This document shows positions 4,500 to 60,680 of a DNA stretch of 64,000 bases, in pieces (position 1 is the stretch's first letter; every line of letters begins with the position of its first letter). Origin of the DNA: an uncultured Clostridia bacterium (GTDB taxonomy: Bacteria > Bacillota > Clostridia > Lachnospirales > CAG-274); contig CANRPW010000002.1 in the NCBI GenBank assembly GCA_947632615.1, positions 1 through 64,000 on the forward strand. Direction: 5' to 3'. Both the position numbers and the translations under genes were made by a program. Under the pieces are notes generated by a model. It did no database searches. It worked only from the letters and a program-made list of their open reading frames with translations, and was not told the origin of the DNA.

Positions 4500-4550
4500 G
4501 CCCGCCCTCACCTGCCAATTTTGCGGCAGGTTTGGGCGGACTTTTATTTT
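4500..4550. terminator. Bidirectional intrinsic terminator between addA and the AlgX-like gene
   Basis: CCGCCC (4502-4507) pairs with GGGCGG (4534-4539) and CCTGCC (4511-4516) with GGCAGG (4525-4530), followed by CTTTTATTTT on the plus strand. It lies between convergent stop codons, three bases after addA. The T-run for the minus-strand gene is weaker. Confidence 0.8.
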
Positions 4551-6028
4551 ATATCTACTCTTTCTTTTTCTCCGAAATAGTTTATGCCCTCCTGAACCAT
4601 CTGAAATTCAATATAAGAGCCCTTTTTTGACGGTGCAGTAAAGTCTTCAAAGGTGAAGGTATATTCCTCCCCGGGCTTCACCTCTGCGCCTTGGGGCAGG
4701 TTTACCCTACATCCTAAGTCAGTGCCGTCCTGCCATACACACAGGCGCACCATATCATCCTCATACCAGCTCTCATCTCCCCTATTCTTTACAACAACAT
4801 CTATGTCATATATGCCGCCGCGCTTAAGCTCTGTGGGCGCATTTGTGGAGATGACCTCAGCTTCGGGGTCTGTCAATACATTTATTCTAAATCCCGGGCT
4901 GTTGTCCGTCAAGGTGTTTAAATATCTTTCGGTCACCTCATATAGCACAACATCGGGCTTAACACAGTCTATATAAGCCTGATCAATATTTCTTGACCAT
5001 ATATAAGTAAGCTCGGAAAAGTTTTCGCTTAAAAGCTCTGTCATATTCCATAAGCCGAACATAGAGTCGCCAAATACAAGCGCTTTTTTATCCTCTGCCG
5101 ACTCATTCATAAACACACGATGAGGGTAAAATTCCCCAAGCCCATTCTTTATGCTTCCTATCTCCTCATATCTCTGCCCTTCTGTAAGCTCCACCGCTTT
5201 GGGGTCATTTATCTCGCTTGTCAAGGTCTTCTCCGCAGGCAAAATATCAACGTTCCCATACATTGCCGCAAATTCCCCCGTATATTCACATTCCACAAAG
5301 TCCACATCTACAGGCTCACTGTGTATTATGCCAAATTTGTTCAGGTCGTTTATTATTTTTCCGTATGCCACATAAGCCCCCGTTTCGTTCCAGTGGGTGT
5401 CGGTTTTAAAATATACCTGCTTTTCCTTCTTTGCCTCAAGCAGCTCCTGTTTAAGCCTTATCACTTTTATGTCGGTGTTCTTCTCAAGATAGTCTGCTAT
5501 TATATCTACAGGTGTTTCTATCACCCCTACATCCGCCTCAGCTATTTCTTCGGGATATATGCTCACCTTGCTGGGAGGAAGTATCAGCGCATAATCTATG
5601 CCCTGCTCTGCCAGCTTATTTTTTATTCTCATTTGCTTTCTTGCCATACTTTCAAGAAAGTCAGAGTCTATTTTATATTTGCCCTTGGCTATTTCAACAT
5701 TGTTGTCATTTTTATAAAAATACCAGCCGTCTTTGCCTTCTTCCACCTTCTCGTTAAACCTGATCCCAAATATATTAAACTTTACACGGGATGCAATAGA
5801 AACCATTTCATCTCTGAAGCCTATATTGTCGTTATACCAGTTTTCAAACGATTTTTTAATACCCTCATTTAATTTTCCGTTTTCATCAAATATAACGGGA
5901 AAATTAGCAAGCTCTCTATTTTCAACCTCAGATATTATATTGGGCAAAAAGTTTAACTTAAGGATAGGTATAAAAATAATAAGGGCAAAAATTATTATTA
6001 TAATAATATTCTTTATCTTACTTTTCAT
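4544..6028 (-). CDS. AlgX/AlgJ-like (DHHW family) SGNH-type O-acetylation protein
   Basis: A 494-residue protein with an N-terminal membrane anchor rich in Ile (about residues 5-25) and an extracytoplasmic domain. The motif KTDTHWNETGAY near residue 210 resembles the DHHW/AlgX catalytic block, and FGDSMF near 320 fits the SGNH nucleophile block. The last ~110 residues form a predicted beta-sandwich (VVVKNRGDESW). Such proteins act outside the membrane with an MBOAT acyltransferase to O-acetylate polysaccharides. The MBOAT gene ends 14 bases upstream, so the two form the tail of the polysaccharide operon. The acceptor is inferred to be the rhamnan-type polymer made by the upstream genes. Confidence 0.75.
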   Translation of the reverse strand: MKSKIKNIIIIIIFALIIFIPILKLNFLPNIISEVENRELANFPVIFDENGKLNEGIKKSFENWYNDNIGFRDEMVSIASRVKFNIFGIRFNEKVEEGKDGWYFYKNDNNVEIAKGKYKIDSDFLESMARKQMRIKNKLAEQGIDYALILPPSKVSIYPEEIAEADVGVIETPVDIIADYLEKNTDIKVIRLKQELLEAKKEKQVYFKTDTHWNETGAYVAYGKIINDLNKFGIIHSEPVDVDFVECEYTGEFAAMYGNVDILPAEKTLTSEINDPKAVELTEGQRYEEIGSIKNGLGEFYPHRVFMNESAEDKKALVFGDSMFGLWNMTELLSENFSELTYIWSRNIDQAYIDCVKPDVVLYEVTERYLNTLTDNSPGFRINVLTDPEAEVISTNAPTELKRGGIYDIDVVVKNRGDESWYEDDMVRLCVWQDGTDLGCRVNLPQGAEVKPGEEYTFTFEDFTAPSKKGSYIEFQMVQEGINYFGEKERVDIK

Positions 6029-6042
6029 ATTATTACCTCATC

Positions 6043-7452
6043 TCAAAAGTTAAAATAAATAAAAGGATTATAGGTGCTTGCAACAGTAAAAGCAGCCGCC
6101 AGCAGGAACAGACATATTATAAAAACAGGTGAAAACACCGCTCTTAATCTGTTTGGCAAAACAAACTTATCGCTTATCTCTCCAAGCTTTTTGTAGATGG
6201 GTGCGCAAAGCACTGTTCCTATAATAAGCAGAACGGCAATGTTTGCAAAATAATACCCCGCTGCGCTGTCTGTAAGGCTGTTGCCGTTAAGCATTATCAT
6301 AGACTTAAGATAACAAACAGCCGTAGTAAGGTCTGCCGCTCTGAAAAATACCCAACCTATTATTACTATCAAAACAGTGTAAAGCCACTTAAGTATTTTA
6401 GGCAGCTTTATATTTACTTCCTTCTTTTTCAAAATTCTTTCAGCCATTATGAAAAAGCCGTGCCATATGCCCCAAAATATAAAATTCCATGAAGCTCCGT
6501 GCCATATACCCGTCAATATAAATACTACCCACAGATTTACATATACGTTGCCCCTTCTGTTTCCGCCTAAGGGTATATATACATAATCACGGAACCAAGA
6601 CGAAAGGGATATATGCCACCTGCGCCAAAACTCGGTTATGCTCTTTGAAATGTAGGGGTAATTGAAGTTTTCCAAAAAGTCAAAGCCTAACATCTTTCCA
6701 AGCCCTATAGCCATATCGCTGTAGCCGCTGAAGTCAAAATATATCTGAAGTGTATAGCAGATAGCCCCAAGCCATGCCATAGCCGCGCTGAGCTTAGAAA
6801 CCTCAGAATTAAAGGCTAAGTCGGCAATAAGCGCCATATGATTGGATATTATCACCTTTTTGGCAAGTCCGTAGGTAAACCTTTTAAGCCCCAAAACAAA
6901 GCCGTCTGCACTTACTGTCCTTTCCTCTATCTGAGAGTTGATATCGGAATATCTAACAATAGGACCTGCAATAAGCTGAGGAAACAGGGAAACGTATAGC
7001 ATTACATTCAGAGGATTTTTCTGAACCTCCACCTTGCCCGTGTACACATCTATAACATAGCTCATACCCTGGAATGTAAAAAAGGATATACCTATTGGCA
7101 AAACTATATTTCTAAGAACAAAATCCGTGCCAAAAAGCCCGTTTATATTTGATATAACAAAGTTAAAATATTTGTAATAGAAAAGTATGCCTAAATTACA
7201 TAAAAGAGAGCACACAAGGAAGAGCCTTTTTAATATCAAGACTCTCTCAAATTTTGCTATAAGATAAGCACTCACATAGTTTACAATGCAGGAGGCTATC
7301 ATAACAAATACAAATTTTGGCTCGCCGTAGGCATAAAAGCCCAAGGACATTAAAAGCAAAAATACATTTCTAAGCTCTTTTCTTATAATGCTATGCCCCA
7401 AAAGCACAACGGGCATAAACAAAAACAAAAACATAGTTGATGAAAAAACCAT
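6043..7452 (-). CDS. MBOAT-family O-acyltransferase (AlgI-like)
   Basis: A 469-residue polytopic membrane protein of the AlgI/DltB family, which passes acyl groups across the membrane. The conserved segment FWRRWHISLSSWFRDY near residue 285 and the histidine block GIWHGASWNF followed by FWGIWHGFF near 315-335 contain the invariant His. The gene lies between rgpF-like and algX-like genes. Together with the AlgX-like protein it forms an export-coupled O-acetylation module. DltB is unlikely because no dltA, dltC or dltD is present. Confidence 0.88.
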   Translation of the reverse strand: MVFSSTMFLFLFMPVVLLGHSIIRKELRNVFLLLMSLGFYAYGEPKFVFVMIASCIVNYVSAYLIAKFERVLILKRLFLVCSLLCNLGILFYYKYFNFVISNINGLFGTDFVLRNIVLPIGISFFTFQGMSYVIDVYTGKVEVQKNPLNVMLYVSLFPQLIAGPIVRYSDINSQIEERTVSADGFVLGLKRFTYGLAKKVIISNHMALIADLAFNSEVSKLSAAMAWLGAICYTLQIYFDFSGYSDMAIGLGKMLGFDFLENFNYPYISKSITEFWRRWHISLSSWFRDYVYIPLGGNRRGNVYVNLWVVFILTGIWHGASWNFIFWGIWHGFFIMAERILKKKEVNIKLPKILKWLYTVLIVIIGWVFFRAADLTTAVCYLKSMIMLNGNSLTDSAAGYYFANIAVLLIIGTVLCAPIYKKLGEISDKFVLPNRLRAVFSPVFIICLFLLAAAFTVASTYNPFIYFNF

Positions 7453-7484: not shown

Positions 7485-9416
7485 TTATTTCTTCCTTCGG
7501 AATATTGATCTTATGCGGCGATAGACCTTGGCGCAAAATTTCCACAGCCTGTCAGGTATTATAGGGCGCAGCTTTTCCTTTATTGCTCTTTTTATAATAT
7601 AAGAACCTGCCTTGCCGCTTAAGGAATTACCTAAATTATATTGATATATCATAGTATTTACTAAGCCATAATGAGAATTAAGGCCGTATATTTTAAAGGC
7701 TATTTCATTCACCCTACTAAGCATAAAATAAAAATTATCCAATGCAACTTTTGCATATTTGTCACACAAAAGCCAACCGCAGTAATAGCCCTCGTGCTGC
7801 ACAACAAAGGGGTATATTCTCTCTATGGCATGCAGAAGCGTACCGTCCGGTTTGTTAGGCTCGGGAGGAAAATCCTCATAGTCCCAGTCCTTATCAAAAA
7901 GAGTCTTCATTGCCTTTGGTCTGAACCAGAACATAGTGCCTAAAGGTGCAATCGGCTCTTTATCTCTGCTCATATCCACCTTAAGCCCCAATTTGCCTGC
8001 AAGTTCGACTGTTACTTCATAGTTATAGCCCCATTCAAAGCTGACTGTAGGGTAATAATCAGAATGATATGGCGGCATTGGCGTAAGCAAGCCGAGGAAG
8101 GGATTTTTTTCAAAGGTGTCTATTATATTTTCAACAAATGCCTTGTTGTGCAGTATGTTTTCAAAACAGTGATAAGAGAAGGACTCTCCCTTTATGCCAA
8201 GATCCAGCTGACCCACCTTTTTGTCGTGGGCAAAGCATACATAGTCATAATCCATTACAAAGTCCTTTGCCCCTGTAAGCAGTGCGCTCACATCTCTGCC
8301 TCTGTTCTTTATAAGAATTACCTCAACCTTTTTGGCATCTATATTTTTAAACCTTTCTTCTATGAGCTTTTTCTTTTCGGGTGTGTTTGTGGTTATATAT
8401 ATATGGGCATTTGAAGGCATTGAAGAGGCATAGTTATAGCAGTAGTCTATAAGGTCTTCAAAATAAATGTGCATTATCAAAGCTACCTTTTTATTTGTAT
8501 TACAGCCTTCAACCGGCTTATCTGAGGGAAGTATATAGTCAAGGTGCAAATTTCGCCTTATGTCAGCCATATTTTGGGTTCTTATAATATTCTTCCATAT
8601 CATATCGACATCATAGTCGGTATGATTTTTCAGATAGTCCATAAGCTCCATGCTCTGATGCGCCGTGCTTTGGTTTAAAAGCTCATCATAGTTGTGGAAA
8701 AAGCTCCTTCTTTTAAATATAGGACATTTCCTGTTTTTTATTATTTCCACAGGCGCCATAATAATGGGATGAAATGAATGTTTTTCCATATCCTCGGTAT
8801 TTACATAAGACTTCCACTTATAGCCCTTATCCCCAAAGGTTTTTGTAAAAATTGCCTCGTGACAGCCCACAGCCTCATTATATGAGTTTATTTCGGGCAT
8901 ATCAGCCCAATATTTTTTAAACTCCTCAGATGTGAGCATACTGTTTCTTACGGCAATAAAATGTGACTGTATGTGCTTAGGTATATAGCCGTATTTTATA
9001 GTGCCGAAGGGGTCATAATCCACCTTGTGGTATACGGTGAGCCCCCAGAAGTCAACATCCTCCCCATTCATTTCGTCAAATACATCTTTAAAATCATAAA
9101 CGGGCCCCATAATGGTAGAATTAAACATAACAAGCTCGTCAAAGCTGTCGAGCTTATCGCCCAAACGCTGCATACCTTCTTTATATGCCCACACATCAAA
9201 GCCCTTGTTTTCTCTTATAAGTATATCGTCACACAGGCTCTTTAGCCTACTGTGAGCGCCATTTTCAATATCTCCGTTTGAAACAAAAAGGAGATGGGTA
9301 AAAAAGTCCTTTACCTTCTCCAAAAAATAAAATACATAGTCGTCAACTATACCGTCTTTGTCATAGAAAAAATATATACCTGCTCTTTTAATATCCTCTT
9401 TTTTATTAAGCTTCAT
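7485..9416 (-). CDS. Rhamnan synthesis F (RgpF) family protein
   Basis: A 643-residue protein matching the RgpF family, which adds side chains or builds rhamnose-containing polymers in Gram-positive walls. The N-terminal part (GIYFFYDKDG, FVSNGDIENG) and the second half (VALIMHIYFEDLIDYCYNY, ITTNTPEKKK, LIKNRGRDVSALL, CFAHDKKV, MFWFRPKAMKTLF) carry recognisable family blocks. The C terminus is strongly basic, ending KVYRRIRSIFRRKK, as in membrane-peripheral glycosyltransferases. No separate GT2 or GT4 enzyme lies in this cluster, so this is the only obvious glycosyltransferase-like protein here. The 17-base gap to the upstream gene implies one operon. Confidence 0.85.
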   Translation of the reverse strand: MKLNKKEDIKRAGIYFFYDKDGIVDDYVFYFLEKVKDFFTHLLFVSNGDIENGAHSRLKSLCDDILIRENKGFDVWAYKEGMQRLGDKLDSFDELVMFNSTIMGPVYDFKDVFDEMNGEDVDFWGLTVYHKVDYDPFGTIKYGYIPKHIQSHFIAVRNSMLTSEEFKKYWADMPEINSYNEAVGCHEAIFTKTFGDKGYKWKSYVNTEDMEKHSFHPIIMAPVEIIKNRKCPIFKRRSFFHNYDELLNQSTAHQSMELMDYLKNHTDYDVDMIWKNIIRTQNMADIRRNLHLDYILPSDKPVEGCNTNKKVALIMHIYFEDLIDYCYNYASSMPSNAHIYITTNTPEKKKLIEERFKNIDAKKVEVILIKNRGRDVSALLTGAKDFVMDYDYVCFAHDKKVGQLDLGIKGESFSYHCFENILHNKAFVENIIDTFEKNPFLGLLTPMPPYHSDYYPTVSFEWGYNYEVTVELAGKLGLKVDMSRDKEPIAPLGTMFWFRPKAMKTLFDKDWDYEDFPPEPNKPDGTLLHAIERIYPFVVQHEGYYCGWLLCDKYAKVALDNFYFMLSRVNEIAFKIYGLNSHYGLVNTMIYQYNLGNSLSGKAGSYIIKRAIKEKLRPIIPDRLWKFCAKVYRRIRSIFRRKK

Positions 9417-9433
9417 AATTTTACCCCCATATA

Positions 9434-10552
9434 TTAGCGCTTGAAACTTCTAAGCGGCTTCGTTATCTTCCATGACAATGAATTTTGAATATAGAATAAC
9501 TCTCTGTGAAGCTGATTGTTCTTTTCAATAAGCTCTTCAACTTCTTTGCCAAGCTCTGCGATCTTATCTTCGTTATATTTTATGTTCCTTTCCAGTGAGG
9601 CGATATATTCGTCTTTCTGACGGGAGGCATTTTCAAGCTCCTTCACATATTCGTCTTTTTTTAGAGAGGCATTTTCAAGCTCCTTCACATAAGCTTCCAT
9701 CTGTTTGGCGCTGTCTTCCAATGCTTTGACATATTCATCACTCTGCTCCCGCGCATTCTCAAGTATGCTTATATAGTTTTTAAGACCGGTTATCTCCCGC
9801 TCATAAACAAACTCATTATCGTTTACTACATCGCCTAATTTAATAGCTCTTTTTAAATAACCCCCTGTATAATAACCCCCTGAAATATGGTCGCAGAAGT
9901 TAGCGCGAAGGTCTATAAGAGTCTGCATATCACAGTCAGAGCCCATATGTTCAAACACATTTTTAAAAGGCTCAAATTCTTCAATTTTCGGATCTATATA
10001 ATACATTGAATAAATAGCATGCAATTTCCAAAGATCGTATAGCACAGGGAAGTCAAAGCCCCATTCATAGTCTATAAAATATGCCTTGTCCTTTAAAATT
10101 ATGTTGTTGGCAGTGCAGTCAAATACACAATATTTAAGTGCTCTTTTTCCCATAAGTTCCGGAGCATCTCCAAAAACGGCTTTAAAGCTGTCGCTGTTGT
10201 CAAACTCACAAAATTCACTCTCGTCAACCTTCATTATGTCAAAAAGAAGGTCTATAGTCTTATAAAAGGCTGTTTTATCATTATTGTTTACGGCGTCCAT
10301 AAGCCTTTTTGACAGCATTTCGCCTTCTATAAAGTCAAATATAAGCTCTCCGTCCTTAAGAGTACAGGGGCACATTGTCATATTGGGGAAGGTCACCTTG
10401 CTGTTTTTATACATATTTTCAATATGCCCTTTTGCTTCGGGCACAGCTGCCTTTTTTATGACAAGCTTCTTTCCGTTTTCTTCGCATATGGAGGTAACTG
10501 TCTGATATATTTTTTTATATTGTCTGTTTGCCTTAGTATATATATTTCTCAT
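9434..10552 (-). CDS. Kinase-like (APH/protein-kinase fold) protein with C-terminal repeated coiled coil; WbdD-like kinase/ruler half
   Basis: A 372-residue protein. Residues ~1-230 resemble a small-molecule or lipid-carbohydrate kinase: KLVIKKA near 30 (nucleotide-binding Lys), then a catalytic loop FDCTANNIIL and FIDYEWGFDFP near 145-170. Residues ~250-355 are a coiled coil with four tandem 14-residue units (for example DEYVKELENASRQK). The tail NSLSWKITKPLRSFKR is basic and amphipathic. The start codon overlaps the methyltransferase stop (ATGA), so translation is coupled. A methyltransferase, a kinase, then a coiled coil is the domain order of WbdD, which caps E. coli O9a O-antigen with phosphate and methyl groups and sets its length. 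The assignment as a split WbdD is inferred from architecture and neighbours. Confidence 0.65.
   Translation of the reverse strand: MRNIYTKANRQYKKIYQTVTSICEENGKKLVIKKAAVPEAKGHIENMYKNSKVTFPNMTMCPCTLKDGELIFDFIEGEMLSKRLMDAVNNNDKTAFYKTIDLLFDIMKVDESEFCEFDNSDSFKAVFGDAPELMGKRALKYCVFDCTANNIILKDKAYFIDYEWGFDFPVLYDLWKLHAIYSMYYIDPKIEEFEPFKNVFEHMGSDCDMQTLIDLRANFCDHISGGYYTGGYLKRAIKLGDVVNDNEFVYEREITGLKNYISILENAREQSDEYVKALEDSAKQMEAYVKELENASLKKDEYVKELENASRQKDEYIASLERNIKYNEDKIAELGKEVEELIEKNNQLHRELFYIQNSLSWKITKPLRSFKR
9600..9770 (-). repeat. Tandem 42-bp repeats encoding coiled-coil units
   Basis: Four consecutive 14-residue units in the kinase protein (starting DEYVKALED, EAYVKELEN, DEYVKELEN, DEYIASLER) correspond to 42-bp DNA repeats. 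The central two share a long stretch of near-identical bases (GAGGCATTTTCAAGCTCCTT on the plus strand occurs twice). Such repeats can change number by slippage and would lengthen or shorten the coiled coil in steps of two heptads. Confidence 0.75.
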
Positions 10553-11460
10553 TTTATTGCCTCCACCAAAAATGAATTAGAAAGCATTTTAAGCTCCTCG
10601 CTTTTAGCCAGGCTTTTATATACCTTGCTCTCGTCAAAGCAAACCAGCCTGTAGTTGTCATAGTTGACAAGGGTAGGTATATAGCTCATATCTTCGGGAA
10701 AATAATCGTCGCTGTATATCTCAACAGGCAGCTTATAATCGGGGAATGGATAATAAAAATATGTTGACTTAAAGCCGTTTTTAAGTATAAGCTTTTCAAG
10801 CTGTGATTTGCTGAAGGTCTTTACCATATCGGTGTTTTCATATCCTTCTATGCCTGCAAAGGGTCTTCCCAGATGGTCTTCACAGCAGCCTGCAAAATAT
10901 TTAAGCCCCAGCTTGTTTTCTATAGCCACATATAGCTTTCCACCGGGCTTAAGGCAGTCTGATATCTTTTTTAAAAACAGATCGAAGGGCTTATCGCCTT
11001 TTATATAATAGCAGGCATATTCCAATACGCCTATGAGTGTTACCACATCATATTTTTTATTTATTTCTATATCCTGAAAGTTGCCTACAAAAATTTCTAT
11101 ATTGTCAAAATTTTTGTTTCTGTAGGCGTTGGCAAGGCTTCTTCTCTTGCTAAGCTCTATGCAGTCTACCTTTTTACATCTTCTTGCAATAGCTCCCGTT
11201 AAAGCGCCCATGCCTGAGCCTACCTCAAGTACGTTGTCATTTTTATTTATATCAAGAGGTTCTATTATATTTTCTCTCTGCTTTGACAGCTGATATAATA
11301 TAGGCCAGCGGTCGTCATTTGAAAGAACTTCGCTGTAGTCATCGGTGGTCTTTACCGTTTCAAGTATTTTATCCTCCACCTCATCGCCTTCATTATACAT
11401 TTTTCCGTCATCCTTATAATAGTCATAATTAAGGATCACGTTTCCCACTTTTTCTGTCAA
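10549..11460 (-). CDS. Class I SAM-dependent methyltransferase (WbdD-like methyltransferase half)
   Basis: The SAM-binding motif VLEVGSGMGALTGAIARR lies near residue 78, followed by DCIELSKRR and the motif IV region KYDVVTLIGVLEYA; PGGKLYVAIEN is the post-IV block. I choose a TTG start at 11460 because AGAGGTGA precedes it by 5 bases. It starts 14 bases after the epimerase stop and gives 303 residues. An ATG at 11520 would overlap that gene by 46 bases and lacks a good ribosome site. The stop overlaps the kinase start by 4 bases. In WbdD the methyltransferase caps the sugar phosphate made by the kinase; here the two would be separate but co-translated chains. Confidence 0.78.
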   Translation of the reverse strand: MTEKVGNVILNYDYYKDDGKMYNEGDEVEDKILETVKTTDDYSEVLSNDDRWPILYQLSKQRENIIEPLDINKNDNVLEVGSGMGALTGAIARRCKKVDCIELSKRRSLANAYRNKNFDNIEIFVGNFQDIEINKKYDVVTLIGVLEYACYYIKGDKPFDLFLKKISDCLKPGGKLYVAIENKLGLKYFAGCCEDHLGRPFAGIEGYENTDMVKTFSKSQLEKLILKNGFKSTYFYYPFPDYKLPVEIYSDDYFPEDMSYIPTLVNYDNYRLVCFDESKVYKSLAKSEELKMLSNSFLVEAIK

Positions 11461-11474
11461 GGTGATCACCTCTT

Positions 11475-12317
11475 TTATTGCATTTTCATTATTTTCTCGA
11501 TTTTTTCGCTGTTTCCCCAAACTCCCGGAGAGTCATACGCTCTGTCGGGGAAAGCACCGTATTCCAGCTTTATGTCGAAGCCATGCTCCTTTATAAAGCC
11601 CTCTACCTTCTCTGCAAGGCTCATAGGCTTGCCTGTACAGCAGTTTATAATTCCGTCAATTTCTGTCTGCATTACGGAGGCTGCTATTTGCTCTGCCAGC
11701 TCGTCCACCTGTATAAAGTCATATTTGTTTTTACCCGTTGTAAATGGAAAGGTCTTTTTGCCTTCCTCCGCCGCAAATGTGAGCTTTGCAAATATAGAGT
11801 TGTTTTTCTTGTCATCTCCGTAAATGTAGTAGGCTCTAAGCCACTGCAAAACAACATCCTTATCCTTAAGCATTAAAAATGTGCTTCTCCTCAGGGCATC
11901 CTTTGCTATGCCGTACATACTGATAGGGTTGCAGGGAGTATTTTCATCTATTGCGCCCTCAAAATATCCAACCTCGTGCATAGTGCCCATAACTGCCAGC
12001 TGCTTAAGTCCGCCCTCTGTCATATTTTTTATAAATTCATAGTGCTTAGACAAAAGCCCCATATGAGCATCTGAGTTGTGCACAAACCCGTCCTTCCATG
12101 CCATATGTATGCAGGCATCGGGAGAACCTAACTCGGCAAATATATCCTCACTTCCCGAAAATATATCAGCCTTTATTCTTTTTGCCCTTGGGTCTATCTC
12201 GTCAATATTAAAATCTGTAGCTATGACCTCTGCGCCGCGCTCAAGCAGTGCCTTTACAACGTGTCTGCCTATATATCCGCCTGCGCCTGTGACCAAAACC
12301 TTCTTTTTATCTCCCAT
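11475..12317 (-). CDS. NAD-dependent sugar epimerase/dehydratase
   Basis: A 280-residue extended short-chain dehydrogenase. VTGAGGYIGRHVVKALL at residues 8-24 is the NAD-binding glycine motif, DFNID at 36 the NAD ribose-binding acidic residue, and MYGIAKDALRR near 134 carries the YxxxK catalytic pair. It probably makes a nucleotide-sugar precursor for the polymer exported by the adjacent ABC transporter. The exact sugar cannot be told from sequence. Confidence 0.8.
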   Translation of the reverse strand: MGDKKKVLVTGAGGYIGRHVVKALLERGAEVIATDFNIDEIDPRAKRIKADIFSGSEDIFAELGSPDACIHMAWKDGFVHNSDAHMGLLSKHYEFIKNMTEGGLKQLAVMGTMHEVGYFEGAIDENTPCNPISMYGIAKDALRRSTFLMLKDKDVVLQWLRAYYIYGDDKKNNSIFAKLTFAAEEGKKTFPFTTGKNKYDFIQVDELAEQIAASVMQTEIDGIINCCTGKPMSLAEKVEGFIKEHGFDIKLEYGAFPDRAYDSPGVWGNSEKIEKIMKMQ

Positions 12318-12329
12318 TTTATTTTCCTC

Positions 12330-13052
12330 CTAATTTTCTGCCAAATACATTTCACAAACCTCTTTTGAGTCGCCTATGTGCCTTACCTTGCCTTTTTCAA
12401 GCCACATAACTCTTGAACACATCTCTTCAAGAGAGTCTATATCATGAGAAACATACACAACAGTCGTGCCCCCTGCCATAAGTTCCTCCATTCTTTTGGT
12501 GCTCTTTTTTTGGAAGGCTATGTCCCCCACCGACAATATCTCGTCTACAATAAGCACATCGGGTATAACTATTGTAGATACAGCAAAGGCAAGCCTTGCC
12601 ACCATACCTGAAGAAAAATATTTAACAGGCACATCTTTAAAGTCCCAGAGCTGAGAAAAGTCAAATATTTCCGCAACCTTTTCGGTAATAAAGGCTTTAT
12701 TATAGCCAAGCACCGCGCCGCTTAAATATATATTTTCCGTTGCGGAAAGCTCAAAGTCAAAGCCTGTGCCAAGCTCTATCATAGGTGCTATAGAGCCTTG
12801 CACGGCTACACTGCCGCTTGTAGGCTTCATTATGCCTGCGATTATTTTAAGCAGAGTAGACTTGCCTGCGCCGTTGCTTCCCACTATGCCGAATATCTCG
12901 CCTTTGTCCACATGAAAGCTCACGCCGTCAAGTGCCCTAAATTTTTTCTTGTCCCGGGCGCTGTCGTTTCTTGCCAAAAGAAATTCCTTTAAGGTTCTTA
13001 CTTTTCCTCTTTCCAGGTTGTATTCCATAACAACATTATTAACATCTAACAT
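12330..13052 (-). CDS. Polysaccharide ABC exporter, ATPase (Wzt/TagH/RfbB-type)
   Basis: The ATPase has Walker A GIVGSNGAGKST, signature KYFSSGMVARLAFAV, Walker B DVLIVDEILSVGD and the switch histidine in VYVSHDIDS. These fit the CPR/Wzt subfamily that pairs with Wzm-type permeases. I choose the ATG at 13052 (240 residues, MLDVNNVV); a TTG at 13076 overlaps the permease stop and would add eight residues. The protein ends just after the nucleotide-binding domain, so it lacks the extra C-terminal carbohydrate-binding domain that Wzt of E. coli O9a uses to recognise capped chains. Confidence 0.88.
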   Translation of the reverse strand: MLDVNNVVMEYNLERGKVRTLKEFLLARNDSARDKKKFRALDGVSFHVDKGEIFGIVGSNGAGKSTLLKIIAGIMKPTSGSVAVQGSIAPMIELGTGFDFELSATENIYLSGAVLGYNKAFITEKVAEIFDFSQLWDFKDVPVKYFSSGMVARLAFAVSTIVIPDVLIVDEILSVGDIAFQKKSTKRMEELMAGGTTVVYVSHDIDSLEEMCSRVMWLEKGKVRHIGDSKEVCEMYLAEN

Positions 13053-13072
13053 AGACCTACATCTCCATACGA

Positions 13073-13852
13073 TCAAGTGTAATATATAAAATTCCTCTGT
13101 GACTTAACAAATATAAAACCGCCAACCGCAAAAAACAATATACCCATCAGAGCACACATACCAAAGCTTGCAGCGCTCGGCACTGTATGATTAAGGGCGA
13201 TCTGTCTTAGAAAATCTATAAATATATACATAGGGTTGAGCTTGTATATAGTCAAAAACTGCTCCGGCACTAAGTCTATGGGGTATAAAATAGGTGTGGC
13301 ATACATCCATATTGTAAGGAGTACCCCGTAAAGATGCTGCGTGTCCCTGAAGAATACCTGAAGAGCTGCCAATATAAAGCTGACTCCCATAGAAAACAAT
13401 ATAAGAAATATCATCATATATATTATAAATATATATCCCCACCAGGGCGAAACATCCATAAAGCAGCCAAGCACTATAAACACAAAAATCGAAATAACAA
13501 GATTTATAGTGGATGAAAGCACCTTTGATATGGGAAGTATCAGCTTAGGGAAATACACCTTTGTAATAAGTGAAAAGTTAAACACTACAGAGGTAAGTCC
13601 CTGATTTGAAGCTTCGTTGAAAAAGTTAAAAAGCACCAGACCCGAAAGGAGATACATTTTATAGTTGTCTACAGCGCTGAACACCTGACTGAACACTATG
13701 CTTAAAACTATCATATTGAGCAGAGGATTGAGCACGCTCCAGAGTATGCCCAGCATACTGCCTCTATATCTTAACTTAAAATCTCGCCTCACCAGCTGAG
13801 AAAGCAGGAACGAAAACCTGCGCAGAGAAAATATCCGACTAAGTAGCTCCAC
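13073..13852 (-). CDS. Polysaccharide ABC exporter, permease (Wzm/TagG-type)
   Basis: A 259-residue ABC-2 permease with six predicted membrane segments. The N-terminal LVRRDFKLRYRGSMLGILWS is the typical Wzm/TagG cytoplasmic helix and loop. The start is GTG at 13852 with AAGGAG about 12 bases upstream. With the following ATPase it would export the lipid-linked polymer built in the cytoplasm. This implies ABC-dependent synthesis, in which chain length must be set before export. Confidence 0.88.
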   Translation of the reverse strand: MELLSRIFSLRRFSFLLSQLVRRDFKLRYRGSMLGILWSVLNPLLNMIVLSIVFSQVFSAVDNYKMYLLSGLVLFNFFNEASNQGLTSVVFNFSLITKVYFPKLILPISKVLSSTINLVISIFVFIVLGCFMDVSPWWGYIFIIYMMIFLILFSMGVSFILAALQVFFRDTQHLYGVLLTIWMYATPILYPIDLVPEQFLTIYKLNPMYIFIDFLRQIALNHTVPSAASFGMCALMGILFFAVGGFIFVKSQRNFIYYT

Positions 13853-13884: not shown

Positions 13885-14724
13885 TTACTTACAAGGCATT
13901 TCATCTATATAGCTTTTTAAGCCCTCTTGCCACGAGGGCAAGGGTGAAAATCCGTCATTTATATATTTGCTTCTGTCTAATCTTGAATTTGCGGGTCTTA
14001 TTGCCTTTGCCCCATATTCTTTACTTGTTATATGTCTGACTGTGCAGTCAAGCCCGCGAAGCCTTATTGCCTCCTCCGCAAGCTCTGCCCAGGTACATTC
14101 GCCGCTGTTTGTTATGTTATAAATTCCCGATTTTCCTGCTTTTATAAGCCGATCTATACCCTTTACAAGGTCCTTGGTGTATGTGGGGCTTCCTACCTGA
14201 TCCCCCACAACGGATATTTCCTTATTTCCCCTTGCCCGCTTAAGTATAGTGCTTACAAAGTTTTTTCCGCCTCTGCCAAAAAGCCAGGACGTGCGTATTA
14301 TAAGATAGTCACTTGCCTCGCTTATTACGGCATCTTCCCCTTCAGCCTTTGAGAGTCCGTATACCGACAGAGGCGCTCTTAAATCATCCTCTGTGTAAAA
14401 CCCCTTCTTTTTGCCGTCAAACACATAGTCGCTGCTTAAATAAACTATCTTTGCTCCGCAGCTTAAGCAGGCTTTTACTATATTTCTCGTACCCAGAACA
14501 TTTGTTTTAAAGCAAAGCTCACGCTCTGTTTCCGCCATATCCACCTTGCTGTATGCTCCGCAGTGTATAACGCAGTCGGGCTTTAGCTTTTCAAAAAAAG
14601 CAAGGGTATCCTTTTCTATTGTAAAGTCAAGCTCCGCCCTTGTTATTTTAGCTGCCGAAGCCTTGCCGTAATATCTGATAAATTCACTGCCTAACAAACC
14701 GTTAGCACCTGTAACAGCAATCAT
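13885..14724 (-). CDS. rfbD: dTDP-4-dehydrorhamnose reductase
   Basis: A 279-residue reductase (RmlD) that makes dTDP-L-rhamnose from dTDP-4-keto-L-rhamnose with NADPH. AVTGANGLLGSEF at residue 3 is the glycine-rich motif, YLSSDYVFDGKKKGFYTEDD near 97 is the classic RmlD block and YGLSKAEGED near 128 holds the YxxxK catalytic pair. SWLFGRGGKNFV follows. rfbB lies directly upstream. The remaining rhamnose genes rfbA and rfbC are not in the window. Confidence 0.92.
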   Translation of the reverse strand: MIAVTGANGLLGSEFIRYYGKASAAKITRAELDFTIEKDTLAFFEKLKPDCVIHCGAYSKVDMAETERELCFKTNVLGTRNIVKACLSCGAKIVYLSSDYVFDGKKKGFYTEDDLRAPLSVYGLSKAEGEDAVISEASDYLIIRTSWLFGRGGKNFVSTILKRARGNKEISVVGDQVGSPTYTKDLVKGIDRLIKAGKSGIYNITNSGECTWAELAEEAIRLRGLDCTVRHITSKEYGAKAIRPANSRLDRSKYINDGFSPLPSWQEGLKSYIDEMPCK

Positions 14725-14763: not shown

Positions 14764-15783
14764 TTATCTGTTAGAATACATTTTTTCGTAGTAATTCTGA
14801 TATTCTCCGCTTATAATATTTTCCCACCATTTTTTATTGTCAAGATACCACTTTACAGTCTTCTTGATACCCTCGTCAAAAAGAGTCTTGGGCTGCCAGC
14901 CAAGCTCGTTGTGTATTTTGGTGGGGTCTATGGCATAACGCATATCATGTCCCGGTCTGTCAGTGACATACTTAATAAGGTCTTCGCTTTTGCCAAGCTC
15001 CTTAAGCACTGTCTTTACCACCTGAAGGTTAGTTCTTTCGTTATGTCCGCCAATGTTATATACTTCTCCTACTCTGCCCTTGTGTATAATAAGGTCTATG
15101 GCAATGCAGTGATCCTCCACATAAAGCCAGTCTCTCACATTCTCTCCTTTTCCGTATACGGGAAGCTCTTTGTCATTGAGCGCATTAGCTATCATAAGAG
15201 GTATGAGCTTTTCAGGGAAGTGATAAGGTCCGTAATTGTTGGAACATCTTGAAATAGTCACAGGCACTTTAAAGGTTCTGTAATATGCCTGCACCAAAAG
15301 ATCAGCCGATGCCTTTGATGCGGAGTAAGGGCTTGATGTGTGCAGAGGTGTTTCCTCGGTGAAAAACAGATCGGGTCTGTCAAGAGGAAGATCGCCATAC
15401 ACCTCATCTGTAGACACCTGATGATATCTCTTTATGCCATACTTCCTACAGGCATCAAGCAGCACGCTTGTGCCTATAATATTCGTCTTTAAAAATATAT
15501 CAGGATTTTCAATAGAGCGGTCTACATGGCTCTCTGCCGCAAAATTAACAACCATATCGGGCTTTTCCTCTTCAAACAGCTTATATACAAGCTCTCTGTC
15601 GGCAATATCGCCCTTTACAAATTTAAAGCCGGGTCTGCCCATAACAGGCTCAAGCGTTTCCATGTTTCCTGCATAAGTAAGAGCATCAAGGCATATTATT
15701 TTATAGTCGGGATATTTGTTTGTCATATAATGCACAAAATTTCCGCCTATAAAGCCTGCGCCGCCTGTAACTATAATATTCAT
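14764..15783 (-). CDS. rfbB: dTDP-glucose 4,6-dehydratase
   Basis: A 339-residue RmlB, first gene of the polysaccharide operon. VTGGAGFIGGNFVHYM is the NAD motif, VNFAAESHVDRSIENP and QVSTDEVYGDLPLD are RmlB hallmarks, and YSASKASADLLVQAY carries the YxxxK pair. It converts dTDP-glucose to dTDP-4-keto-6-deoxyglucose for rhamnose. The plus-strand region upstream (15784-15970) should hold the operon promoter, but no clear -35/-10 pair is visible to me. Confidence 0.94.
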   Translation of the reverse strand: MNIIVTGGAGFIGGNFVHYMTNKYPDYKIICLDALTYAGNMETLEPVMGRPGFKFVKGDIADRELVYKLFEEEKPDMVVNFAAESHVDRSIENPDIFLKTNIIGTSVLLDACRKYGIKRYHQVSTDEVYGDLPLDRPDLFFTEETPLHTSSPYSASKASADLLVQAYYRTFKVPVTISRCSNNYGPYHFPEKLIPLMIANALNDKELPVYGKGENVRDWLYVEDHCIAIDLIIHKGRVGEVYNIGGHNERTNLQVVKTVLKELGKSEDLIKYVTDRPGHDMRYAIDPTKIHNELGWQPKTLFDEGIKKTVKWYLDNKKWWENIISGEYQNYYEKMYSNR

Positions 15784-46760: not shown

Positions 46761-47031
46761 TCCCGCACGCCTTATCGTCGATAGACAACTCCGGACGTTA
46801 CTTTGGCAGTTAACTCAGAACAAGCTGCCTCACAACACACAGGGTGGTTTACTTAGTGCTGCTGCGGTCACGCCCTGACACGGTTCGTAAAGTCCTGTTG
46901 TGTAAGACTCATTCGTCAACATCACTTACTAAAGGCAGACCCCAAAGCTGCAAACCTCGGAAAAAGGCAAGTCCCCCTACTACAGCGGATTGTAGGTTAC
47001 AAGGCACCGCTATCTCCCCGGTTTGTGCGGG
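46761..47031 (-). ncRNA. ffs: Signal recognition particle RNA, large bacterial type (scRNA)
   Basis: About 271 bases just upstream of dnaX, the position and size of B. subtilis scRNA. The 5' TCCCGCAC (47024-47031) pairs with 3' GTGCGGGA (46761-46768). The helix 8 core reads GTCAGG-GCG-TGAC-CGC-AGCAG near 46870, matching the universal UCAGG...AGCAG internal loops around a three-base stem and a tetraloop. The tetraloop is UGAC, of the URRC class, not the common GGAA. It scaffolds Ffh for membrane targeting. A promoter lies at 47059-47087. Confidence 0.92.
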
Positions 47032-60062: not shown

Positions 60063-60680
60063 ATTATGCCCTCCTTTGTATAAAGAACTGCGAACCATTA
60101 TCCTACACTTTTATTATACCATGAGAAGCAGTCGAAAAAATTACATTTCCGAAATTACAAAATTAAAAATCAAAACATCGGCAGCAACGGTAAACTGCAC
60201 ATAGGAATCTCACCTCCGAGTGTTTTTCACTCAGCCCCGTAGGGAAGTATCATTATAGCCATCTGCGTGTCATCGCCTTTATAATTTACCAAATTATACT
60301 TTACAATAAGTGTACTTATCGCTCAGCCCCTTTGCTCGGAAAAACCAAAGCTTACAATCTTAATGACAGAGGGTCGTGGCGTACATATTGCTTGGCTATC
60401 CGCAGACGGAAAGTACCGACATTTGTTATATTCGATTTTCAAAGAACAAATTTATTTTTATACAACAATTATAAAATCAAGGGAATTTATTGTCAAGGTC
60501 CATTTTTAATTTTTTCAAAAATTTTCCTCTGCTTCGTTTCATTCATTACAAAGGTTGTTGCAGCTTCATTTGCAAATTATAATTTTTTGTTTTTGCAAAG
60601 CAATTGACAAAAATCTTTTGGCTCTTTATAATGAAAAGTGAAAAAAGAGATTTTGGGGTATTTATAATTTTGATTTGGGA
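60063..60680. other. Non-coding stretch upstream of the recombinase, possible gene relic
   Basis: TATAAT on the minus strand (60113-60118) may be the recombinase -10 box. On the minus strand a short frame ending at 60227 encodes NYKGDDTQMAIMILPYGAE after a TTG at 60292. It is followed by a strong GGAGGTGAG ahead of an ATG that opens only ten codons. These look like fragments of small element genes. No full gene is visible to 60680. Confidence 0.4.

Follow-up and report, generated by a model that had tools for sequence, protein, structure and literature searches.

The window, that is the whole stretch of 64,000 nucleotides analyzed here, carries on its minus strand, in this order, rmlB, rmlD, wzm, wzt, an SDR epimerase/reductase gene, a methyltransferase gene, a kinase-coil gene, rgpF, an MBOAT gene and an AlgX-like gene. 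All window features located below lie on this strand. The methyltransferase gene (10549..11460; 303 aa, chain 1 of the putative terminator) starts with TTG at 11460, with AGAGGTGA just upstream, and stops with TGA at 10549-10551; Pfam assigns its product to the class I SAM methyltransferases (1.4e-11). The adjoining gene encodes a 372-residue kinase and coiled-coil protein (9434..10552; chain 2), and its ATG at 10552 shares the letters ATGA with the methyltransferase gene. The first-pass annotation had described this overlap, together with a Wzm/Wzt exporter, rhamnose genes and RgpF as neighbors, and was right about both: the two genes were found there on the minus strand, with Wzm/Wzt, RmlBD and RgpF flanking them. 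A frameshift or assembly error as the origin of the split is ruled out by the 53 family members that share it.

Within chain 2, an APH/choline-kinase-like domain (residues 1-240; 9833..10552), recognized from AlphaFold2, Foldseek and conserved residues, is followed by one helix, the putative ruler (residues 246-370; 9443..9817), delineated by the AlphaFold2 model and a heptad pattern. Repeat analysis places in this coil four 14-residue (two-heptad) units of the form LENxxxxxxEYVKx (9596..9763). The C-terminal motif NSLSWKITKPLRSFKR (9437..9484) is common to many family members. On one side of the pair lie RgpF, the probable rhamnan polymerase (7485..9416; Pfam RgpF, 1.4e-205), an MBOAT O-acyltransferase probably involved in polymer decoration (6043..7452) and an AlgX/DHHW SGNH-type protein, its probable acetylation partner (4544..6028). 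On the other side are the SDR sugar-nucleotide epimerase/reductase (11475..12317), which has an orthologue in the related locus L031, the exporter ATPase Wzt (12330..13076; 248 aa, devoid of the Wzt_C cap-binding domain), the permease Wzm (13073..13852), and RmlD (13885..14724) and RmlB (14764..15783) for dTDP-rhamnose synthesis. The presence of the SDR enzyme inside the operon may imply a second sugar beside rhamnose.

The window genome is that of a gut bacterium of the class Clostridia, with relatives such as Candidatus Gallispira. No Omp85 was found in this genome, which encodes two proteins of the LytR-CpsA-Psr type, candidates for attaching polymers to the wall; the organism is therefore probably monoderm, and an outer-membrane organism is disfavored on the same grounds. 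The dTDP-rhamnose pathway is complete in the genome, with rmlA and rmlC on contig C1, and there are two polyprenyl-phosphate transferases and a single copy of RgpF. The polymer may be a plain rhamnan placed on the wall. Elsewhere in the window, Rfam reports a pemK RNA motif (60199-60256) and a large SRP RNA (46763-47030).

Fold and catalytic residues of the two chains

All six SAM residues of the methyltransferase (Y22, Y56, G81, G83, E102 and Y148) are present. In the kinase-coil protein, Pfam gives no match in the first ~245 residues and NCBIfam no kinase family, and a single-sequence search of the PDB returns matches to the coil only. Using an alignment of 87 sequences, AlphaFold2 predicts a kinase fold with pLDDT values of 96-98, followed by one helix. 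According to Foldseek, the kinase model resembles APH(3')-Ia, the archaeal RNA kinase Ark1, macrolide kinases and LicA. The residues T20, K33, N150, D161 and E163 are invariant in the 87 sequences and D145 is 99% conserved; K33, D145, N150, D161 and E163 are all retained in the window. The structure prediction proposed in the first-pass annotation thus yields, for chain 2, a kinase fold with its catalytic residues intact. The otherwise conserved R12 and R178 are changed in both the window and L031 kinases, and P171 is changed in the window as well. Taken with the kept catalytic residues, these substitutions suggest that the window kinase is probably active, perhaps on a shifted acceptor.

Family architecture and the exporter

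A kinase-only search of 60 relatives led to 14 loci, in all of which (14/14) a methyltransferase of the same family is adjacent or fused. At least 551 confirmed relatives of the methyltransferase family were retrieved from 84,980 species genomes; of the best 80, which were compared, most come from Clostridia, one from a Bacillales bin and one from a Campylobacterota bin. The kinase is adjacent or fused in 78 of these 80 loci; the remaining two are a locus truncated where its contig ends and L088, in which the methyltransferase stands without a kinase. Pairing at this level (78/80 and 14/14) means that the gene adjacency is more than chance. Four loci listed twice under two names were removed before the subsequent counts. 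Of 391 genomes drawn evenly from the window's class, 26 have the kinase. At L088 (8001-8903), the family methyltransferase stands beside a Wzm/Wzt exporter with the cap-binding domain and is possibly a methyl-only terminator.

The cap might consist of phosphate only or of methyl only, one enzyme of the pair having another role. Precedents exist for a rhamnose glycan capped with phosphate in Clostridia (Ox247, PMC6254364) and for a rhamnan capped with methyl in Geobacillus (WsaE, PMC2943079), and L088 keeps a methyltransferase of the family without kinase. We nevertheless give little credence to a single-group cap, given the near-obligate pairing, the 33 fusions of both domains and the retention of catalytic residues in methyltransferase and kinase alike.

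Of the 86 loci compared, 53 encode the methyltransferase and kinase as separate proteins and 33 as a fusion. The fused orthologues that the first-pass annotation had proposed to look for in Clostridia thus exist. Its suggestion that a two-chain system would be a novelty stands for the Gram-positive two-chain form, which is new, but the layout itself is commoner than the fusion in the sampled Clostridia (53 versus 33). On a tree of the 86 methyltransferases, the split and fused states need 15 changes, at least 12 of them on well-supported branches. Throughout, the order of modules is fixed (methyltransferase, kinase, beta domain where present, coil, polymerase), while the chain cuts move. All modules are separate in the window (three genes), methyltransferase, kinase and coil are fused in L018, L019, L022 and others, and kinase, coil and GT are fused in L016, L020, L021 and L029. 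One chain comprises kinase, coil and RgpF in L031, and methyltransferase, kinase and RgpF in L027. The model of the fused L018 protein displays methyltransferase, kinase, beta-sandwich and coil. L031 is the sister of the window on the methyltransferase tree (support 100/99), and its chain continues into RgpF exactly where the window kinase gene stops, 17 bases before rgpF. No other finding speaks as strongly as this fusion at a window gene boundary for kinase-coil and RgpF acting as one machine in the window.

A plasmid collection yielded two distant gammaproteobacterial homologues. The Citrobacter braakii plasmid pF217-3, typed as conjugative, carries a rhamnose O-antigen-like cluster with Wzm/Wzt_C and encodes a homologue of the methyltransferase protein whose second domain is divergent (L115:7923-9872).

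In O9a-type systems, Wzt_C reads the cap before export. This domain (PF14524) occurs in 77 of the 79 loci having Wzt, the only exceptions being the window and its sister L031; a free-standing copy was sought across the whole window genome and none was found. In another relative, L040, a short Wzt is followed by Wzt_C as a gene of its own. The terminator's beta (CBM-like) domain is likewise absent in the window and L031 and present in most relatives. Since Wzt in these two loci has no cap-binding domain, an O9a-style export gate cannot work there as described, and export in this subclade is not gated by Wzt_C. Capping in the window must either end the chain without a Wzt_C check, or another protein reads the cap.

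The state of the exporter would also fit a pair that puts phosphate and methyl on internal residues or side chains rather than on the chain end. Sequence reads the same for a terminal and an internal acceptor, and MBOAT and AlgX suggest a decorated polymer anyway. Against internal decoration stand the fixed order with coil and polymerase, the RgpF fusion, the Wzt_C domain carried by 77 of 79 relatives, and the chain-end activity proven for the Klebsiella pneumoniae O7 enzyme ORF6-O7 (PMC11231755). On balance we regard it as highly unlikely and retain chain termination as the probable function of the pair.

The coiled coil and a proposed mechanism

The first-pass annotation had read a coil of ~100 residues with a basic tail. 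The coil and its tail, SLSWKITKPLRSFKR, are there, but the helix predicted by AlphaFold2 is longer, about 125 residues; at 1.5 Å per residue, residues 246-370 span about 185 Å. The four 14-residue units read LENAREQSDEYVKA, LEDSAKQMEAYVKE, LENASLKKDEYVKE and LENASRQKDEYIAS, and at the DNA level their core is still a 42-bp tandem repeat (9605-9691, 88% matches). Tandem repeats of 21, 42 or 84 bp occur in the coils of L021, L032, L051, L054, L071, L072, L081 and L093. The main exception to heptad-multiple periods is L086, with repeats of 15/30 bp, and a 46-residue repeat in L031 is also out of line with this pattern. The near-identical kinase-coil genes of two Clostridium bins (L069:8949-10325 and L071:8949-10304) differ by one clean 21-bp unit. 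These repeats suggest that slippage may alter the length of the ruler in whole heptads, possibly between strains.

The distance from the beta domain to the C-terminal Trp ranges from 32 to 119 residues (n=27 family members), and 22 of the 27 distances fall into two classes modulo 7, whose offset of 4 is that expected from one hendecad stutter. A random draw matches this two-class fit in about 1 of 10,000 trials (17 distinct lengths), a figure qualified by the post hoc choice of the classes and by the relatedness left in the sample. Coil length changes while helical phase stays; the need for a continuous coil alone would favor such phase keeping. By our home-made and rough coiled-coil score, from which the coil lengths and coil absences of the family survey derive, two members, L024 and L027, have no coil between the kinase and the next domain or end, L027 being fused directly to RgpF. 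The ruler is thus not universal in the family.

Coil lengths that vary widely, down to none in L024 and L027, and the lack of a Wzt_C export gate in the window are compatible with a coil that serves only for oligomerization and membrane anchoring, the enzyme ratio or the export rate setting chain length; capping by the pair could go along with this. We consider such a limited role rather unlikely, as the coils change in length yet keep their helical phase, and as the ruler function of the WbdD coil is established (reviewed in PMC5082667).

Taken together, the gene pair very probably encodes a terminator of two chains that acts on a surface polysaccharide containing rhamnose and carries its own molecular ruler. 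The analysis shows the domain identities, the catalytic residues, the near-obligate pairing, the repeated fusion and splitting in a fixed order and the loss of the cap-binding domain. The reaction, its acceptor, the formation of the complex and the control of length would be as follows. RgpF, docked on the C-terminal end of the coil, would extend the lipid-carried polymer at the inner membrane face, while the coil would keep the kinase and its bound methyltransferase at a distance of up to about 185 Å. Once the chain has grown so far that its non-reducing end reaches these heads, the kinase would phosphorylate the terminal rhamnose, with D145 as the presumed general base and K33, N150 and D161 holding ATP and metal. 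The methyltransferase would then methylate the phosphate to give a methylphosphate cap, and the capped chain would stop growing and be exported by Wzm/Wzt. More tentatively, and with the balance leaning somewhat against so complete a picture, a Gram-positive wall rhamnan may be measured by a three-chain machine of methyltransferase, kinase-coil and RgpF, whose ruler evolves by whole-heptad tandem duplication without rotating the heads and in which chain ending has been uncoupled from export by loss of the cap-binding domain.

What is new here is the Gram-positive two-chain form, the loss of the exporter's cap-binding domain and a ruler made of heptad-multiple units. The terminator family, which PMC11231755 describes in Gram-negatives and one archaeon, now reaches hundreds of loci (at least 551 matches), mostly in Clostridia and many in gut commensals. 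Its natural split and fused versions are material for studying how such machines assemble. For the control of length in ABC-exported Gram-positive wall rhamnans, the window points to a specific enzyme, to methylphosphate on rhamnose as the predicted end group and to a predicted length dial that would turn in 14-residue steps.

Comparison with known systems

The streptococcal and lactococcal Rgp rhamnan clusters contain RgpF, dTDP-rhamnose genes and an ABC exporter, as does the window; a methyltransferase-kinase terminator in these clusters is not described in the literature found. The rhamnan of Geobacillus is Gram-positive, has a terminal methyl cap, uses Wzm/Wzt and is made by WsaE, which joins a methyltransferase with rhamnosyltransferases (PMC2943079). 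WsaE has no kinase, however, and it methylates the sugar rather than a phosphate, independently of length in vitro (PMC2943079); the window methyltransferase, by contrast, has a kinase gene adjoining its own. The S-layer glycan of C. difficile Ox247, which bears a terminal cyclic phospho-rhamnose, resembles the window polymer in being clostridial, rhamnose-rich and ABC-exported, with phosphate (predicted in our case) on the terminal rhamnose, and differs in the cyclic form of the phosphate and in its S-layer linkage (PMC6254364). Neither precedent has the window's enzyme type assigned. A Gram-positive methylphosphate terminator was not found in the literature searched, whose coverage stopped short of subscription papers.

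In E. coli O9a, the WbdD coil measures about 200 Å and the polymerase is a separate dual-domain protein. WbdD and the window share the order methyltransferase, kinase, coil and a tail that in WbdD recruits to membrane and polymerase, as judged from gene order, fused relatives and the tail motif; the WbdD coil end (E. coli) carries SRSWRMTKGYR, similar to NSLSWKITKPLRSFKR. O9a WbdD is a single chain with a eukaryotic-like kinase, and export is gated by the cap-binding domain of Wzt; the window differs in all three respects. Against WbdD of E. coli HS, the family kinase profile gives no match by hmmsearch or hhalign, and the family methyltransferase profile matches the general SAM core only. WbdD is not among the 50 best Foldseek matches of the window kinase, whereas the fused L018 model aligns to WbdD structures over 508-574 columns across both domains. 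A kinase unrelated by sequence within this alignment points to the same plan with a different kinase. A true WbdD split in two, to which the domain order, the coil-end motif and the L018 alignment could be referred, is extremely improbable given these failed matches and the reported dissimilarity of the O7 and WbdD kinases in sequence and structure (PMC11231755). The WbdD-like split terminator and ruler proposed in the first-pass annotation therefore keeps its domain order, its split pair and a well-supported mechanism, while its family assignment gives way to an APH/LicA-like kinase. The window pair would thus function in the manner of WbdD and, by proxy, group with the O7 type.

The closest proven system is the O7 terminator of K. 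pneumoniae, ORF6-O7. Its methyltransferase is followed by an unannotated kinase of 223 residues that resembles AmiN and requires D441, then by an Ig-like CBM, a coiled coil and a pair of GT2 modules; in vitro the enzyme adds phosphate and then methyl to O3 of the terminal rhamnose (PMC11231755). The same paper names orthologues in alpha- and gammaproteobacteria, in cyanobacteria and in one archaeon, none of them Gram-positive (PMC11231755). The SAM residues of the window match Y28/Y66/G91/G93/E112/Y158 of ORF6-O7, as named in PMC11231755, in identity and spacing. A 1457-residue homologue from P. asturiensis with the O7 layout has these residues at the exact O7 numbers and is hit by the methyltransferase profile at 1.4e-64 and, in a two-sequence search, by the kinase profile at 2.4e-10, with the catalytic Asp aligned; D145 of the window aligns with the family Asp and with D443 of this protein. 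The window and ORF6-O7 have in common the order of methyltransferase, APH-like kinase without Pfam match, coil and rhamnosyl polymerase, the Wzm/Wzt pathway and a rhamnose polymer. ORF6-O7 is one chain in a Gram-negative; its coil is preceded by an Ig-like CBM, and its polymerase consists of two GT2 modules. The window has three chains, no such CBM, and RgpF. By proxy of the named ORF6-O7 residues and the P. asturiensis protein, membership of the window pair among the O7-type terminators appears well supported.
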